A stretch of 64,000 nucleotides of DNA, from the NCBI GenBank assembly GCA_018434685.1, contig JAHDOV010000002.1, forward strand, positions 1-64,000, in the 5' to 3' direction. Shown one piece after another: positions 6,398-43,395 of the stretch. The notes beneath the pieces are model-generated. The model was not told the DNA's origin. It did not search any database and was given only the letters and a program-made list of their open reading frames with translations. Each line of letters begins with the position of its first letter. Positions within the stretch are counted from its first letter, which is position 1. The stretch is from Deltaproteobacteria bacterium (lineage in GTDB: Bacteria; Desulfobacterota; Desulfomonilia; UBA1062). A program made the position numbers and the translations under genes.

Positions 6398-7222
6398 CTA
6401 GTTCTTTCCCCGCTCCTGCGCCTTCTTAAAGGCATTGGTGAGGCCGAGCTCGTACATCAGCTTCCTGCCCACCGCCTCGGTGGGTGCGAAACGGCGCACG
6501 AATCCAATCTCGCGCTCGGTCGGCCGGTCTGTCTCCGAGAGGTCCTGTGCCACCTTGAGGTCCCAGGGCACTTCTTTTTTGATATCCTCGACCTTCACGC
6601 CCGGATGCACCCGGGAGAGGTACATCTCACGGCTCTCCTCGTCGAACCGGAACACGCCCTTGGTGGTCAGCAGCATGGACGGCCCCGAGCCCTTCGGGAA
6701 CAGCCCCGTGGCATCCCTGCTGTCGCCGCCGTCGAGGTATCCCGGTGAGGTGAAGTAGTCCAGCTTCTCCACGAAATCACCGCCCCGCATGGTGAGGACG
6801 GTCCTTTTCGCATAGGAGAGAAAGTCCGCTGCACCGCCTGAGCCGGGAAGCCTGAGCTTCGGTTTGTAGTAATCCCCGATGACCGTGGTGTTGATGTTGC
6901 CGAACTTGTCGATCTGTGCCACCCCGAGGAAGCACACGTCTACATACCCCCGGTAGGTCATGGTAAATGCCGAAAACAGGTCCGTGGCATAGGAAAAACC
7001 CCGGCAGGAGTGCGCATCGGCGATGTGGTTCGGCGGGACCAGGGGCTGAAAATCGATGATCCCGGACTCCATCATCAGGGTCGCCCCGGGTGCGTGCAGG
7101 GCCTTGGCCAGGGCCCCTGCCGTCGTGGGCAGCCCCACACCCAGGATTACGTTTTCACCGTCGTGGATCTCCCGCGCGGCCGTTATGATCAGGAGTTCAT
7201 CGAGCGTGTATTTCTTAGCCAT
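6398..7222 (-). CDS. Acyl-CoA:CoA transferase subunit B (glutaconate CoA-transferase-like)
   Basis: Beta subunit of a class I CoA transferase. The catalytic-glutamate motif of the family is visible in MMESG, followed by HSCRGFSYATDLFSAF, and the glycine-rich segment RLPGSGGAADF is characteristic of GctB/IpdB-type subunits. Transfers CoA between carboxylic acids; the substrate pair cannot be read. ATG 7222 has AGGGGG upstream and overlaps the stop of the A subunit gene (8 bp), so the longer frame to 7255 is rejected. Confidence 0.85.
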   Translation of the reverse strand: MAKKYTLDELLIITAAREIHDGENVILGVGLPTTAGALAKALHAPGATLMMESGIIDFQPLVPPNHIADAHSCRGFSYATDLFSAFTMTYRGYVDVCFLGVAQIDKFGNINTTVIGDYYKPKLRLPGSGGAADFLSYAKRTVLTMRGGDFVEKLDYFTSPGYLDGGDSRDATGLFPKGSGPSMLLTTKGVFRFDEESREMYLSRVHPGVKVEDIKKEVPWDLKVAQDLSETDRPTEREIGFVRRFAPTEAVGRKLMYELGLTNAFKKAQERGKN

Positions 7223-8261
7223 TGAGCAACCCCCTTTCCTCCAGGATTTCTTCAAGCTCTTCGAGCGTCAGGCCCATGGTGCGCTCCCGGTCCTCATCAT
7301 CCCAGCACGAGGTGAAGGCGGAACCATAATCGGCCGGGGCCGAAAAGTAGGATTTCGCCCTGATCGCTTCGAGCATCTCAGAGCCGTGTTTCGCCATGTA
7401 GTGATCCAGGTAGTCGGCGCGGTCCCGGCAGCCGTAGACCCACTCGTCCATCCATGCCTTCAGGCCGTCGCCTCTCATGTCCGAAACGAAGAACATGGCA
7501 TACATCAACCGGTCGAGGTTGTAGTACCCGAGCACCTCGGTGGGATGAGCCCCCCAGGGGATCTCCACCACGGCATCCACCCGGTAGCCCGGGATGATCG
7601 TCAGGTGCGGGCTGGACTGGATGATATCGTGCTCCACGATCTCCTCGCACGAGACGATGATCCTTTTGCTCGCGAGCGCCGCTGCCGCAACACTGCCCAG
7701 CGCGCCCCAGTACTGGGCATTCCCGTACCGGTCGCACCGCTGGACATGCACGATGCACACGTCCGGGTTTGCCGCCGGCACGGTGAGGATGTCCTTGCCC
7801 GTGTACGGGCACGTGATCACCCGGTACTTGTCTTCTCCCATGAACGAGCGCTTCTTGAACAGGTCGGTAACCATGGCTCCCTCGAGGACCTGCATGAAGC
7901 TGAACCCGTGCATACCGGCCACGAGCCGGGCGTTGTACTGGAAATTCGTGTAGTCCTCCATCTCCAGGGTCCCTGCCTGCAGCGCCCGCTCCACGGCAGA
8001 TCCCCCTTCCTTTCCGCCGGCACGGTACACGTAGGTGGACACGAGCCGGTCCACGCACCCGCCTGCCACGAGCACCTCCACGTCGAAGACCCCGGATTGT
8101 GAATACAGGGTCAGCCCCGTCTTTTTCTGCCTGATGACCTCGAAGGCGAGCTCGGCACAGGTCCCTACCGTGTAGTTGCCGATTACGAGGTGATCGCCGT
8201 CATGCACGAACCTGCTGATGGCCTCGTGCGCAGTCATGACCTTGGTCTTTGAATCTGTCAT
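7215..8261 (-). CDS. Acyl-CoA:CoA transferase subunit A (glutaconate CoA-transferase-like)
   Basis: Alpha subunit, about 348 residues, partner of the gene immediately downstream. Family features are FVHDGDHLVIGNYTVGT near the N-terminus, ANPDVCIVHVQRCDRYGNAQYWG and a C-terminal helical extension. ATG 8261 is preceded by GGAGGAGG at two bases, a very strong ribosome binding site, so the upstream extension to 8384 is unlikely. Together with the acyl-CoA synthetase at 36-38 kb it suggests carboxylic-acid activation and degradation. Confidence 0.85.
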   Translation of the reverse strand: MTDSKTKVMTAHEAISRFVHDGDHLVIGNYTVGTCAELAFEVIRQKKTGLTLYSQSGVFDVEVLVAGGCVDRLVSTYVYRAGGKEGGSAVERALQAGTLEMEDYTNFQYNARLVAGMHGFSFMQVLEGAMVTDLFKKRSFMGEDKYRVITCPYTGKDILTVPAANPDVCIVHVQRCDRYGNAQYWGALGSVAAAALASKRIIVSCEEIVEHDIIQSSPHLTIIPGYRVDAVVEIPWGAHPTEVLGYYNLDRLMYAMFFVSDMRGDGLKAWMDEWVYGCRDRADYLDHYMAKHGSEMLEAIRAKSYFSAPADYGSAFTSCWDDEDRERTMGLTLEELEEILEERGLLNG

Positions 8262-38587: not shown

Positions 38588-39019
38588 ATGCCAAACACAC
38601 CGAGAGAGAGCGACAGGACATTGGTTCAGCGAGACAGCGGCGACAGTACACCGATCACCAGAAGAGATGCCATCAAGCGGATCTCCAAGGTGCTGATGGT
38701 TTCCGGCTCGGTTGCCGTCACGGGCCTGGTTACGTCAAAGGTCTTTGCAGAATCAACGTATGACAATTACTGCAATTATGCCAACTATGCAGACTACACC
38801 AACTACGCCAATCAGAAGTATGGAAACTACACCGCCTATGGCAACTACAAAGAGTATGCTAATTATGCGAACTACTACAACAAGAGCTCGGGCGGCAATT
38901 ATCTGAACTACGCCAATTACGTCAACTGGCGAGACTACATAAACTATACGAATTACTCGGACTACACCAACTATACCAACTACACCAACTACGCGAATTA
39001 CTCGAACACCTGCAAATAG
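38588..39019 (+). CDS. Tat-signal repeat peptide (Tyr-x-Asn tandem repeats), predicted radical SAM substrate
   Basis: 143 residues; ATG 38588 has GGAAGG five bases upstream. Residues 1-54 are a leader with a twin-arginine signal (TRRDAIKRISKV, then a hydrophobic stretch, cleavage likely after KVFA54). Residues 58-140 are almost pure three-residue repeats: aromatic residues at 58, 61, 64, 67, 70, 73; 78 to 96 every third; and 105 to 138 every third, with Trp at 114 in register. 23 of these 25 units are aromatic-x-Asn/Asp. Cysteines at 62 and 142. Asn and Tyr codons alternate between AAC/AAT and TAC/TAT, so the protein pattern rather than recent DNA slippage is conserved. Directly followed by two radical SAM genes; predicted to be their substrate. 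Confidence 0.85.
   Translation: MPNTPRESDRTLVQRDSGDSTPITRRDAIKRISKVLMVSGSVAVTGLVTSKVFAESTYDNYCNYANYADYTNYANQKYGNYTAYGNYKEYANYANYYNKSSGGNYLNYANYVNWRDYINYTNYSDYTNYTNYTNYANYSNTCK
38759..39007 (+). repeat. Tandem 9-bp coding repeats (Tyr-x-Asn units)
   Basis: About 25 units in three blocks (38759-38812, 38819-38881, 38900-39007 approximately), separated by short non-repeat linkers (NQK-like and NKSSGG). Degenerate at DNA level, regular at protein level. Confidence 0.8.
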
Positions 39020-39048
39020 CATGCTTTTGTGTGCGAGCCTGAGATAGT

Positions 39049-40047
39049 ATGGCGAATCTCCTGTTAACCACGAGGTGTGTCCGTTCCTGCCCCTACTGCT
39101 TTGCCCGCAACGAGATGGCACAGTCCCCTCAGAGCGACACGGTATCCTGGGAAAACATCATATACCTTGCAGATTTTCTCGTCCGGTCCGGGGAACATCA
39201 CATCGCGCTCTTGGGCGGAGAGCCGACCCTGCATCCGCATTTCGTTGACATCGTCCTCTATCTGCTGGAACGGGGCTTTCACATAACCGTATTCACCAGC
39301 GGCGTGATGTCGGATGAACGGCTCGAGGACGTGGCAGATCACGTTACCCGGATCCCCCCTGACCGGATCCAGTTCGTCTGCAACCTCAACGACCCCGAAC
39401 AGACACCTGCTCCCGAAGGGGAGCTTCGCAGGGTGGAGGCATTTCTCACCGCCCTGGGCCCCTGGACAACACCGGGATTCAATATCTACCGGACAGACTT
39501 CAGTCTCGACTTCATCTTTCACAACATCACCCGCTTCGGCATGCAGGGACTGCTGCGCATCGGCCTTGCAAGCCCCATATCACAGCAGGAGAACCTGTAC
39601 ATCAAGAGCGAGGACATGAAGAACGTTATCGACAGGCTCTACAGCTACCGTGCCCTGTTCGAGAAGCTCCATGTGAAACCGAATCTCGACTGCGGATTCC
39701 CGCTGTGTTATTTCTCCGACGAACAGCTCGGGTGGTTTTTCCGCATGTCAGGCGGTGCCAATTTCGGCTGCGGACCGGCCATCGACATAAAACCGAACAT
39801 GGATGTGTACAGCTGCTTCCCGCTTTCAGGCATCCACAAACGTTCCCTGTTCGAATTCGACTCGCTGCAGGATGTTGCAGCCTTCTATATCGATCTTCAT
39901 GACCGGATCCGTCAGGATTTCCCCGGGGTGTTCGCCCAGTGCGCCACGTGCACCTACCGGCATGACGGCCGCTGTTCCGGTGGCGGAGTATGCCATCTAT
40001 TGAGGGATGCTGCCCATGAAACTCCCAACCCTTGTATGTCCCTATAA
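39049..40047 (+). CDS. Radical SAM/SPASM protein, putative peptide maturase
   Basis: 332 residues. The radical SAM cluster motif is C10-VRS-C14-PY-C17 followed by LLGGEPTLHP, the SAM-binding GGE. The C-terminal SPASM-like region has C241, C256 (DIKPNMDVYSC), C298-x2-C301, C309 and C315, enough for one or two auxiliary iron-sulfur clusters. Such enzymes make carbon-carbon or thioether links in ribosomal peptides. It starts 29 bases after the repeat peptide gene and overlaps the next gene by 32 bp, so it is in the same operon. Confidence 0.88.
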   Translation: MANLLLTTRCVRSCPYCFARNEMAQSPQSDTVSWENIIYLADFLVRSGEHHIALLGGEPTLHPHFVDIVLYLLERGFHITVFTSGVMSDERLEDVADHVTRIPPDRIQFVCNLNDPEQTPAPEGELRRVEAFLTALGPWTTPGFNIYRTDFSLDFIFHNITRFGMQGLLRIGLASPISQQENLYIKSEDMKNVIDRLYSYRALFEKLHVKPNLDCGFPLCYFSDEQLGWFFRMSGGANFGCGPAIDIKPNMDVYSCFPLSGIHKRSLFEFDSLQDVAAFYIDLHDRIRQDFPGVFAQCATCTYRHDGRCSGGGVCHLLRDAAHETPNPCMSL

Positions 40048-40882
40048 CCGCGCCCTGCTCGAGGGGATCGACCGGCACGACATCGTCGTCAGGGTCGAAC
40101 AGCTCCCGGATATTACCCGTGCGGCCCACGACATCCGTTCGTCCGGCAAGAACCTGATCGATGTCGTCATCGAGGTCGATCAGCCGCTGAGCGACATCCC
40201 TATCCAGGAGGACTGGCACGGCATCCCGATCGCGTTGTTTACCCCTGAGATGGGCAGGTTCAGGGATATCGCCCACCAGGTACCGCGCATTCGCGACCTC
40301 AGGATGCACGTGTATCTCCCGGCCGAGAACCCGGAGAACCTCACGGCCTGCCGCATCCTGTCCTCTCTGGGGATCACCTGCTGTCTGGTCTTCGGTACGG
40401 CCGAGCCGGACTGGACGGCCCTGTCAGACCTGATGGCCTATGCCGTCTTCGGCCCCGTCCCCCACGCCCCCATCGAACCCTTCGGTTATATTGCCAGGCA
40501 GTACAGCCCCGATGCATACACACTCTGGGGCAGTGTGTACTATGACGAACCAGGGGAATTTCTCCATCTCGATGGAGACGGACGGGTGGCACTGTCTTCT
40601 GCGGCACTGCTGAGCGGGTCATACATTGCCGACCATATCCCCCCGGCATCCGAGCCGCTTGATACCGAGGACTACAGACAGGGGATCACTGCATGGAGGC
40701 ACCTGTTCCTGGCAGACCATCCCTGCAGGGCATGCGAGGGCTGGAGAATCTGCATGGGCAGGTTCGGCGCCCAAGGCAGGCACGCCCCTGGCTGTTCGAG
40801 ATTCGCTGCCGATATGCTCACAGAGGTCGAGCAGTACCGCACTGAGAACAAGACCGAACCCCTGCAGGAAGACCTCTCATGA
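40016..40882 (+). CDS. Radical-SAM-like protein lacking the SAM cluster, with C-terminal SPASM-type cysteines
   Basis: 288 residues. No CxxxCxxC motif at the N-terminus (only LVCPYNRALL). The C-terminus keeps C237-x2-C240-x5-C246-x13-C260 (HPCRACEGWRICMGRF), a SPASM/twitch-like cluster site, preceded by FLHLDGDGRVALSS where catalytic homologues have cysteines. It resembles in layout the SPASM-only partners of systems such as GeoRSP; a scaffold or substrate-binding partner is inferred. ATG 40016 is preferred to 40007 because GAGGG lies nine bases upstream. Overlaps the next gene by ATGA. Confidence 0.7.
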   Translation: MKLPTLVCPYNRALLEGIDRHDIVVRVEQLPDITRAAHDIRSSGKNLIDVVIEVDQPLSDIPIQEDWHGIPIALFTPEMGRFRDIAHQVPRIRDLRMHVYLPAENPENLTACRILSSLGITCCLVFGTAEPDWTALSDLMAYAVFGPVPHAPIEPFGYIARQYSPDAYTLWGSVYYDEPGEFLHLDGDGRVALSSAALLSGSYIADHIPPASEPLDTEDYRQGITAWRHLFLADHPCRACEGWRICMGRFGAQGRHAPGCSRFAADMLTEVEQYRTENKTEPLQEDLS

Positions 40883-42987
40883 AGACCGTCATCTTCAAGG
40901 CAACCGACCGGTGCAATTCCAATTGCGTATACTGCCACGCAATCCGCAAGAACAATCCCGTACCGACCATGCCCTTCGATATCCTCGAACAGTTCTTCAT
41001 AAAGGCGAACGCCTTTCTTACTCAGTGGCCCGAAGAAACCCTGAAGATCATCTGGCACGGCGGAGAGCCGCTGATCCTCAAACCCGAATACTACTACCAG
41101 GCCCTGGGCTACAAAGAGACCATCTGCAGGGATACCGGTTCGCGGATATCGTTCGACATGCAGAGCAATCTCACCTTGTTTTCCAGGGAATATGTCGACG
41201 TCCTGAAAAAGATGGGGATCCAGAGCTTCGGCACCAGCTTCTACCTCCTTCCCGGCGTCCGGGGCAGCGGAGGCACAGAGGGCTCTGACCGCTACAACCG
41301 GCAGTTCATCCGCGCTACCTCGCTCCTGGAGGAGGAAGGGTTCTCCTGGGGAATCATCTACGTGGTCACGAAACTCGCGCTGGAAAACCCGCTTGAACTC
41401 TTCCGGATACTTACCAACTTCGTTCCCTCTGCCTCGGTCATGTTCAATCCCGTCACCTTTTACCCGGAAAAACCCGGCCAGGTCGCCATCACCCCCGAGG
41501 AATTCGTGGATTTTCTCGGCGCGATCTTCCCTCAGTGGTGGCGGAAACGAGACCGGTATCCCGGGGTAGACCCCTTCAGTTCCCTGGTGGAAAACCTTAT
41601 CAATGGAAACAGATCCCTCATATGCATCGATTCGGGCAGATGCGCCGACACGCATCTGAGCATCAGTCCCGACGGCATGGTCTGGCAGTGCGGCAGATCT
41701 TCCGACTGGGGCCTCATGTCCTACGGTTCGATCATGGACTTCTCGCTTACGGACATCATGAATCACCCCCAGAAAGACCTCATGAGAAAGAGGAACGCCA
41801 TCCTGCAGGAAGGCGAGTGCAAAGGCTGCCGCTTCTGGGACATCTGTCATGGCGGCTGCCCGCTCGATGCCCTGGCCGAGCACGGTTCCCTCCTGCATAA
41901 ATCCCCCTGGTGCTGGACCAAGAAAGGGTTTATCGAGAAATACTTCGAACCCGTCACGGGCGTGACGTACCAGCCATCTTCCGGGCAGGCCCAAGCACAG
42001 CAGACCCTGCGGGGTGAAACCATCACCATCCCCGAGTTTGAATCCCGGCCACCGGCACCCCCTGCCGGGGAGTGCAGCACTGAAGAATCCCCCTGGATCG
42101 GACCCATCAACCGGATTGACGATGTATTGATGATATCGGGCATATTGCAGCAGCTTGTCGAGGAAAACCCATCACGGAGATTCAACCTGGTAAACAAGGC
42201 GAGCTACCGGGAACTTCTCGAGGGTCATCCGGCCATCTCCTCTATCGGCCGGCCGCCGCAGGGAACGGTTCCCCTCTGCCTCGACTATGGAGACAGCACT
42301 GGTCCCACATGCCCTGCGAGGGCCTACCAGGCCATCGCCGACCTGCTCGGACTGGCCACCCCGGCGGAAGAAAGGCTCTGTGTCCCCTGGCAATTCGAGG
42401 ATGATCCGGTTCTCCGGGGTCTCATTCCCTGGAGGGCTCGCAACATCCTCATCTGCCCCGCAGCGGAGTCGCAACGGGCGAGGATGGATGTCCAGAAATG
42501 GGAAGACCTTGTCAAGCGTCTTGTGGCCGATGGTTTCGGGGTCATGCAGATCGCAAGCATACGGCATCCCCATATCCGCGGTGCCTGCGGCATTCGCGGC
42601 CTGAGCAGTCTGAAACAGATCATATCGTTTACGCGAAACTTCGATCTGATCATCACCTCGCACAACCTGTTCATGCATGCCGCACAACTGCACGGCATAC
42701 CCGCCATCGTCCTGTGGGGTCCGAGCGATCATACGTTCTACGGCTATGAGGGCCACTATCATCTTCAAGGACCGCGGGCATGCCACCACGCCCAAGGCTG
42801 CCTGGTGCATAATCAGACCGAATCACCATGCCCCATGGCGGATGAGCACTGTATGGACCTCATCGAGGTGGACACCATCCACCAGACCGCCCTGGAGGCA
42901 GCCCGCTCTCATGCGGCACAGACAAGGACATCCCCCGAGCCCGGGATCATGGAAGGTGCAGCGTGGCAGGATTTCTCTCGAGACTGA
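40879..42987 (+). CDS. Radical SAM/SPASM enzyme fused to GT9 glycosyltransferase domain
   Basis: 702 residues. Residues 1-350: radical SAM core C12-NSN-C16-VY-C19, WHGGEPLI, and a full SPASM set (C249, C255, C271, C314, C317, C323, C327, C345) like anaerobic sulfatase-maturing enzymes. Residues 408-668: a complete GT9 (heptosyltransferase) pair of Rossmann domains; R-I-D-D415-V matches the N-terminal catalytic GD region, WEDLVKRLVADGFGV the helix after the nucleotide-binding strand, FMHAAQLHGIPAIVLWGPS the donor site, and C635/C641/C651/C658-M the usual GT9 tail. The donor-site Asp of the (D)TGxxH motif is His595 here. Predicted to modify and perhaps glycosylate the repeat peptide. Confidence 0.85.
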   Translation: MKTVIFKATDRCNSNCVYCHAIRKNNPVPTMPFDILEQFFIKANAFLTQWPEETLKIIWHGGEPLILKPEYYYQALGYKETICRDTGSRISFDMQSNLTLFSREYVDVLKKMGIQSFGTSFYLLPGVRGSGGTEGSDRYNRQFIRATSLLEEEGFSWGIIYVVTKLALENPLELFRILTNFVPSASVMFNPVTFYPEKPGQVAITPEEFVDFLGAIFPQWWRKRDRYPGVDPFSSLVENLINGNRSLICIDSGRCADTHLSISPDGMVWQCGRSSDWGLMSYGSIMDFSLTDIMNHPQKDLMRKRNAILQEGECKGCRFWDICHGGCPLDALAEHGSLLHKSPWCWTKKGFIEKYFEPVTGVTYQPSSGQAQAQQTLRGETITIPEFESRPPAPPAGECSTEESPWIGPINRIDDVLMISGILQQLVEENPSRRFNLVNKASYRELLEGHPAISSIGRPPQGTVPLCLDYGDSTGPTCPARAYQAIADLLGLATPAEERLCVPWQFEDDPVLRGLIPWRARNILICPAAESQRARMDVQKWEDLVKRLVADGFGVMQIASIRHPHIRGACGIRGLSSLKQIISFTRNFDLIITSHNLFMHAAQLHGIPAIVLWGPSDHTFYGYEGHYHLQGPRACHHAQGCLVHNQTESPCPMADEHCMDLIEVDTIHQTALEAARSHAAQTRTSPEPGIMEGAAWQDFSRD

Positions 42988-43014
42988 AAAAAGGCGTAGA
43001 AGGAGCGAAGAGCG

Positions 43015-43395
43015 ATGGATAGCAGGACATACGTACGACCGTCGAGGGCCTCTGGCTTTGTCCTCATTGTCTTCGGGTTCCTCTTCCTCGTTTTCGGGGT
43101 CGTCCTCCTCCTGTCCGCCGAGGGAGAGGCAAAACCATACGCGATAATGTTTCTCGTCATATGGGTCAGTGTCTGCCTGTATATGATCGGGTTCGGCTTT
43201 TATATCCTCCGCGGCAAGGTCCCCCCTGCCGTATTGACCCTCGATACGTCAGCCGCACCTCATGGTGAGGAAAACGGCAGCGGAATCGATTTCGAACTGA
43301 AGCTGAAAAGACTTGAGAAGCTCCGGAAAGAAAACCTCATCACCGAAGACGAATATCGCCACAAACGCGAAGAGATCATGAACGAGAAGTGGTGA
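43015..43395 (+). CDS. Small membrane protein with SHOCT tail
   Basis: 126 residues: two membrane segments (about 13-35 and 43-65) and a C-terminal SHOCT domain (KLKRLEKLRKENLITEDEYR). AAGGAG nine bases before ATG 43015, and only 27 bases from the glycosyltransferase fusion gene, so probably last gene of the repeat-peptide operon. SHOCT domains often mediate oligomerisation; a membrane partner for export or anchoring is possible. Confidence 0.75.
   Translation: MDSRTYVRPSRASGFVLIVFGFLFLVFGVVLLLSAEGEAKPYAIMFLVIWVSVCLYMIGFGFYILRGKVPPAVLTLDTSAAPHGEENGSGIDFELKLKRLEKLRKENLITEDEYRHKREEIMNEKW

Follow-up and report, generated by a model that had tools for sequence, protein, structure and literature searches.

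Does a tyrosine-repeat peptide encoded beside several radical SAM proteins belong to a peptide-modification system, and is that system one already described? The window analysed here, a stretch of 64,000 nucleotides, raises this question at positions 38588–43395, where a check of open reading frames (ORFs) found closely spaced genes for a leader peptide (A), a radical SAM protein (B), a degenerate radical SAM/SPASM protein (C) and a radical SAM/SPASM–GT9 fusion (D). A sequence-only reading had grouped these genes, together with a following SHOCT membrane protein (E), as one candidate operon of a new kind. We find that A–D recur as a cassette in more than ten phyla and that no searched family library covers the set, and we favour, with moderate confidence, the inference that the product is a Tat-exported chain of cyclophanes.

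Layout of the locus

Taken in order from A to E, the ORFs are separated by 29 bp, overlap by 32 bp, overlap by 4 bp and are separated by 27 bp (Table 1). When checked against the sequence, the ORFs, coordinates, motifs and spacings that the sequence-only reading had reported all held. Residues 52–55 of A (VFA|E) form a signal-peptidase-like end after the leader segment.

Table 1. Features of the cassette in the window.
Feature	Position	Strand	Basis or remark
A, precursor protein, 143 aa: twin-arginine leader and hydrophobic segment, then Tyr-repeat core	38588..39019	+	70% homologue in L020; homologues in nearly all cassette loci
A, leader segment RRDAIKRIS with flanks, and hydrophobic stretch	38642..38737	+	Leader profile
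A, repeat core, 23 units [Y/W]-x-[N/D]	38759..39016	+	Unit count; tiling test over 41 precursor cores
B, radical SAM protein, CxxxCxxC and SPASM-like cysteines	39049..40047	+	Motif, AF2 model, Foldseek
C, degenerate radical SAM/SPASM partner (likely) without SAM-cluster cysteines	40016..40882 (alternative start 40007)	+	Motif, AF2, Foldseek
D, whole, radical SAM/SPASM and GT9-like half	40879..42987	+	ORF, Pfam
D, N-terminal part, radical SAM/SPASM maturase	40879..42003	+	Nearest DynA/DarE, anSME and cyclophane-forming families; far below cut-offs
D, C-terminal part, GT9-like glycosyltransferase domain, four conserved cysteines near end	42064..42984	+	Optional in family, often a separate gene
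E, membrane segments and SHOCT-like end	43015..43395		SHOCT score 20.0 against a cut-off of 27 (below)

The proposed place of E in the operon held as regards position, and E is preceded by a good ribosome-binding site. Its conservation failed: E is missing from the near relative G016/L020 and from every other cassette locus, and we rejected it as a conserved part. Because it is not conserved, E probably lies outside the system. Comparison of flanks did not settle whether the cassette is an insertion, the flanking genes in relatives being on separate contigs or missing.

A repeat precursor under selection

The core of A contains 23 [YWF]-x-[ND] units, slightly fewer than the roughly 25 first counted, and more than 15 units never arose in 20,000 shuffles of the same core. 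Between A and its L020 and L023 homologues, the rate of difference at third codon positions is about double that at the first or second, and the Tyr and Asn columns are retained while the middle residue varies. This third-position excess, with the persistence of the Tyr and Asn columns, shows that A is a genuine protein under selection and that the Y-x-N frame is the part retained. Neither A nor ten diverse relatives match any NCBIfam or Pfam family.

The initial description of the repeat as Tyr-x-Asn holds only in part. YxN units are found in the window, L020, L023, L052 and L053; the repeats are Y-YYN-YGD in L016, S-YYN-YFR-YSR in L018, YxS in L030, L032, L033, L035, L036 and L072, and of other types elsewhere. 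What is invariant across loci is the rule aromatic-x-[N/D/S/R]. The 41 cores tested contain 721 non-overlapping units of this form, whereas shuffling gives 384; the mean z is 4.6, and z exceeds 2 in 37 of the 41. The spacings i+1, i+3, i−1, i−2 and i−3 gave much weaker signals, including in the subset of cores whose period is not three, a result that separates Y-x-N from N-Y. Clear units are few in the cores of L042, L049 and L056, and L022 follows the rule only partly, which counts against the mechanism proposed below. Cores extend to about 200 residues, and the L034 precursor, with the core AYASWQGYSAYASWSYNRNR, is a candidate for a shorter natural substrate.

Several further features of repeat proteins were seen in passing. 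The YxS precursors of L030, L032, L033, L036 and L072, which carry five phylum labels, have a conserved C-terminal block in common, which contains two cysteines and resembles YYSQYCSGRGS..YYYSYYCSSRYSSY, possibly a sign of cross-phylum transfer or a functional end domain. A Tyr/Ser-repeat precursor in L057 (8603–9583) has an Lcl_C domain (Pfam 1.7e-11) fused to its C-terminus, a hint that the repeat might act as a stalk in larger surface proteins. Finally, in L060, a locus with distant B homologues, an ORF at 6733–7527 has Cys-x-Cys-rich repeats followed by YYTYYQTYYQTYYVYYS and could be another repeat substrate.

Two radical SAM/SPASM enzymes and a probable degenerate partner

The claim that the precursor is followed by a radical SAM protein and a radical-SAM-like protein without SAM-cluster cysteines held. 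In B, the CxxxCxxC motif (C10, C14 and C17) and seven further, SPASM-like cysteines (C215, C220, C241, C256, C298, C301 and C309) are invariant across 39 members. The AF2 model of B (pLDDT 86) is closest in Foldseek to SuiB (E 4e-9) and SkfB (8e-9), with BlsE and anSME also matched. Both B and D meet the radical SAM/SPASM superfamily criterion, CxxxCxxC plus SPASM cysteines.

C lacks CxxxCxxC and retains C-x2-C-x5-C plus one further cysteine. Its AF2 model is confident (pLDDT 90, pTM 0.88), and the top Foldseek match is again SuiB; the probability is 1.00 and the TM score 0.50, yet the E-value is only 1.8e-3. A sequence search of the PDB with C returned nothing, and the window copy matches no NCBIfam or Pfam family; across 32 members, none matches TIGR04304 and two match the generic SPASM domain. 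With its lost SAM-cluster cysteines, its retained cysteine set and its SuiB-like model, C is best read as a degenerate radical SAM/SPASM partner, a likely assignment that rests on sequence and a predicted structure.

For D, proposed as a radical SAM/SPASM–GT9 fusion, the first half of the claim held. The window copy exceeds the Pfam cut-offs for PF04055 and PF13186, and the radical SAM/SPASM cysteines are invariant in 28 members. All 28 match the models for DynA, anaerobic sulfatase maturase, DarE, GrrM/OscB, AmcB and YhhB, and all or most match those for XyeB and FxsB. The scores of window D, in bits, are nonetheless far below the family cut-offs: DynA 132.9 versus 450, DarE 116.7 versus 650, AmcB 64 versus 425, GrrM 63 versus 310, YhhB 63 versus 445 and XyeB 57 versus 450. 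Its solved relatives in the PDB are anSME (1.5e-30), ChlB and 5wgg, which we take to be CteB.

The GT9 half of the claim needs qualification. In the window copy the C-terminal half of D scores 15.7 against a cut-off of 22 for PF01075, whereas the L037 homologue reaches 38, and there is a profile match to WaaF (1psw, 6e-8). Across the family GT9 is optional: 22 of 32 scorable loci have it, and ten, about a third, lack it while keeping A-B-C-D intact. Where it occurs, it forms a fusion with D in some loci and with C in L028, L029 and L031, and in many it is a gene of its own. Cores from loci with GT9 are richer in serine (median fraction 0.20 versus 0.10 without, p 0.001), an association that is suggestive only, the rows being related by descent and several residues having been tested. 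The core in the window has little serine.

Distribution and co-occurrence of the gene set

A scan with the B alignment as query, limited to a single genome for each species, gave 55 loci, and the trio was then identified by profile searches over all ORFs of these loci and of two loci from whole genomes. Leaving the window aside, B, C and D lie next to one another in 36 loci, the two from whole genomes included. By record title, these come from Deltaproteobacteria (Desulfobacterota and relatives), Nitrospirota, Bacteroidota (including rumen and gut bins), Chlorobi, Ignavibacteria, Elusimicrobia, Spirochaetes, Gemmatimonadetes, Armatimonadetes and Nitrospinota. The gene set is spread over more than ten phyla, with the caveat that nearly all records are metagenome assemblies, whose phylum labels may be wrong. 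With C as the query, the set was likewise recovered in related genomes, alongside homologous precursors with differing repeats.

Of these 36 loci, 34 have, next to the trio, a precursor with the leader RRxALKR(M/I)A and a hydrophobic segment, as detected by the leader profile. In the two exceptions, L024 and L043, the contig ends 2 and 148 bp past D, where many precursors sit. Tandem pairs of precursors occur in L018, L052, L053 and L055. Among 99 relatives, strong matches to the leader profile (E<1e-6) are confined to genomes with the cassette; weak matches in two same-genus genomes (L115 and L116) fall in an ORF of the ATP-synthase region and were rejected as chance. The sequence-only reading had named repeated co-occurrence in other genomes as support for its proposal, and enzymes never neighbouring such peptides, or an existing family for the set, as grounds against it. 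Co-occurrence was found, E excepted and GT9 optional; the enzymes do adjoin such peptides; and NCBIfam and Pfam searches returned no family covering the set.

In a tree of B the phyla are intermixed on well-supported branches, with at least two changes for Bacteroidota and three for Nitrospirota. Pairwise distances of B, C and D correlate (rho 0.58–0.67), which is what genes moving together would show. Horizontal transfer of the cassette is likely, subject to possible contamination of the bins. A search of plasmids with C gave no match, and no other gene recurs consistently next to the cassette. In two Bacteroidota bins a look-alike protein of 229–240 aa is encoded right after the precursor (L051, 13910–14596; L054, 13146–13865); the L051 copy matches no Pfam or NCBIfam family.

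The set is not uniform. A reduced variant (L028, 9632–12587; L029, 9647–12569; L031, 70–2632) consists of B and a C–GT9 fusion, with D missing. In L028 and L029 the short precursor carries TRREATKRIAE, has neither a hydrophobic stretch nor repeats, and has a core ending in SKDYGGYTIPVDTR. These two loci, without D and with a precursor lacking signal and repeat, count against the mechanism proposed below.

A twin-arginine leader and linked translocase genes

An alignment of the leaders shows a nearly invariant RR, a hydrophobic stretch and AxA-like or lipobox-like ends; a lipobox-like cysteine, as read from the alignment, closes the signal in about eleven precursors. The features of a Tat substrate (twin arginine, hydrophobic stretch and cleavage site) are met, except that Ala stands where the Tat consensus has Phe (RRxAL versus RRxFL). 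In three loci tatA and tatC lie directly downstream of the precursors: L048 (13289–14202, a spirochaete bin), L052 (13543–14638) and L053 (7743–8808), the latter two Bacteroidales bins. The Pfam E-values are 1e-12 or better for tatA and 1e-47 or better for tatC. These cassettes probably carry their own Tat translocase, and the linkage lends independent support to export by this pathway. The Tat pathway carries folded proteins, which would suit a substrate stiffened prior to export. The RRxAxKR element may, beyond its role in a Tat signal, also be a motif for enzyme recognition, an inference drawn because L028 and L029 keep TRREATKRIAE without the hydrophobic stretch.

Proposed mechanism and alternatives

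The core rule, aromatic-x-[N/D/S/R], is the acceptor motif of enzymes that form three-residue cyclophanes, and this identity underlies our preferred reading. In the proposed mechanism, B, C and D would recognise A through the conserved RRxALKR(M/I)A leader, with C, a catalytically dead relative, probably serving as a docking or scaffold partner. D most likely, and perhaps also B, would abstract the Cβ hydrogen from the third residue (Asn, Asp, Ser or Arg) of each aromatic-x-X unit, and that carbon would then be joined to the ring of the aromatic residue in the unit. The predicted product, inferred from motif and enzyme kinship, is a stiff poly-cyclophane rod with up to about 20 three-residue cyclophanes in series. 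Modification would take place in the cytoplasm, ahead of export. Where GT9 is present it might glycosylate the core, possibly on serines; support for this step is weak. The stiff product would leave through Tat and, where the lipobox-like cysteine occurs, could be anchored in the envelope. That A is modified at all, as first proposed, remains an inference without mass spectrometry.

Three other explanations deserve weighing. The most serious keeps the logic of the cassette and changes the chemistry: the radical SAM enzymes may oxidise, epimerise or otherwise alter Asn, Asp, Ser or Tyr singly, or form Tyr–Tyr or ether links. This remains possible. The solved relatives of D include anSME, every one of the 28 D members matches the sulfatase-maturase family, and the fold of B is nearest to SuiB, SkfB, BlsE and anSME, whose chemistries differ. 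The distance of D from all equivalog cut-offs likewise counts against cyclophanes, and kinship with anSME leaves room for other reactions at Tyr, Asn or Ser. As background, anSME oxidises Ser or Cys to formylglycine and forms no cyclophanes, and epimerases invert residues. Against this alternative, anSME acts on a single Cys or Ser in a sulfatase motif rather than on repeats, and an aromatic residue placed exactly two before N, D, S or R fits cyclophane enzymes, not epimerases or formylglycine formation.

A glycosylated surface fibre, with the GT9 sugar as the main modification and the radical SAM step secondary, is unlikely. The frequency of GT9 and the serine-richer cores that accompany it speak for this idea, as do the four conserved cysteines near the GT9 end: TibC, which modifies serines, has a four-cysteine iron finger (PMC4358343), and TibC and AAH are known to heptosylate serines of autotransporters. 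The cysteine spacing, however, is unlike that of TibC, the ten loci without GT9 are otherwise intact, the window core is poor in serine, and the serine statistics carry the weaknesses given above. Mere co-location, in which the genes lie together by chance, through hitch-hiking or as part of an unrelated surface-protein operon and the peptide is no substrate, is very improbable. It can draw on the facts that every functional step is inferred and that repeat sequences are easily gained. Against it, leader and core rule are common to more than ten phyla despite different repeats, and the precursor adjoins the trio almost without exception and is absent where the trio is absent.

On balance, an aryl–Cβ cyclophane cassette with Tat export is the best explanation, held with moderate confidence and ahead of each rival. 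The genes, their recurrent association, the common leader, the core rule and the linkage to tatA and tatC are observed; bond, export and function are all inferred. Because the product would be Tat-exported and often anchored, we infer that it is more likely a structural or redox element of the surface or periplasm than a diffusible antibiotic. A bolder reading, which we hold to be rather more doubtful than not, is a new class of envelope polymer: ribosomally made rods, exported by Tat and in many cases lipid-anchored, in which as many as tens of Tyr–Asn/Asp/Ser/Arg cyclophanes follow one another, installed by a three-protein radical SAM set with a dead partner, sometimes sugar-coated, serving structural, adhesive or electron-carrying rather than antibiotic roles and spread by transfer over more than ten phyla.

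Most known products of radical SAM peptide modification are short, soluble molecules. If our reading is correct, radical SAM chemistry extends from antibiotics to envelope materials, with whole Tyr-repeat proteins turned into rigid chains exported folded, and peptide modification acquires an unusual link to the Tat pathway, including cassettes with their own tatA and tatC. The natural variety of substrates offered to one enzyme set (YxN, YxD, YxS and YxR) is useful for working out acceptor rules.

Comparison with known systems

The cassette is apparently undescribed, a likely conclusion that rests on open-licence literature, NCBIfam and Pfam only. The novelty proposed from sequence alone is supported to that extent: we found no description of the gene set in the open-licence literature, and a subscription paper could have been missed. 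The cassette follows a logic like that of triceptide and His-Xaa-Ser systems but does not satisfy all the criteria for membership of either.

In triceptides (XncB, OscB/GrrM, MscB, YxdB, HaaB, YhhB; FxsB), a radical SAM/SPASM enzyme likewise stands next to an aromatic-x-[Asn/Asp/Ser/Arg] precursor, and the acceptors correspond one for one; in the published products, the acceptor Cβ belongs to an Asn, Asp, Ser, Arg or Ala that stands two residues after the Trp, Phe, Tyr or His to which it is joined (PMC11002830). The cassette differs in falling far below every family cut-off, in its trio with a dead radical SAM/SPASM partner, its Tat-type leader, its long cores and its optional GT9. It also lacks a conserved dedicated transporter or peptidase, except for tatAC in three loci.

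His-Xaa-Ser systems (HxsA, HxsB and HxsC), as represented by NCBIfam models, share a three-residue repeat that opens with a ring residue and closes with a small polar one, and two radical SAM proteins. The repeat of the cassette is instead Tyr-based (YxN/D/S/R, not HxS), and the precursors have no match to the HxsA family. B fails the HxsC cut-off (17.6 versus 267.9), D fails that of HxsB (54 versus 370), and none of the families searched offers a counterpart of C. Separately, an archaeal bin (L073, 6457–6951 and 7922–11996) encodes a His-Xaa-Ser repeat protein (HxsA4 58.2 versus a cut-off of 55) beside several radical SAM genes, without C.

DarE and DynA are the top-scoring named families for the radical SAM/SPASM half of D, which nevertheless stays far below the DynA cut-off. 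Darobactin and dynobactin precursors are those of short antibiotics and are not known to carry repeats behind Tat leaders. GeoRSP systems combine an active radical SAM/SPASM protein with a SPASM-only partner that has no SAM cluster, and the cassette likewise pairs an active enzyme with a partner lacking the cluster; it differs in that C does not match TIGR04304 and no other gene recurs beside the set. The TvgA/TvgB system, which makes poly-cyclopropylglycine, has a TVGG repeat, another enzyme and another gene set. There, a single radical SAM enzyme repeatedly modifies a precursor built of tandem repeats (PMC9062424), and the cassette likewise offers a putative tandem-repeat substrate to radical SAM enzymes.
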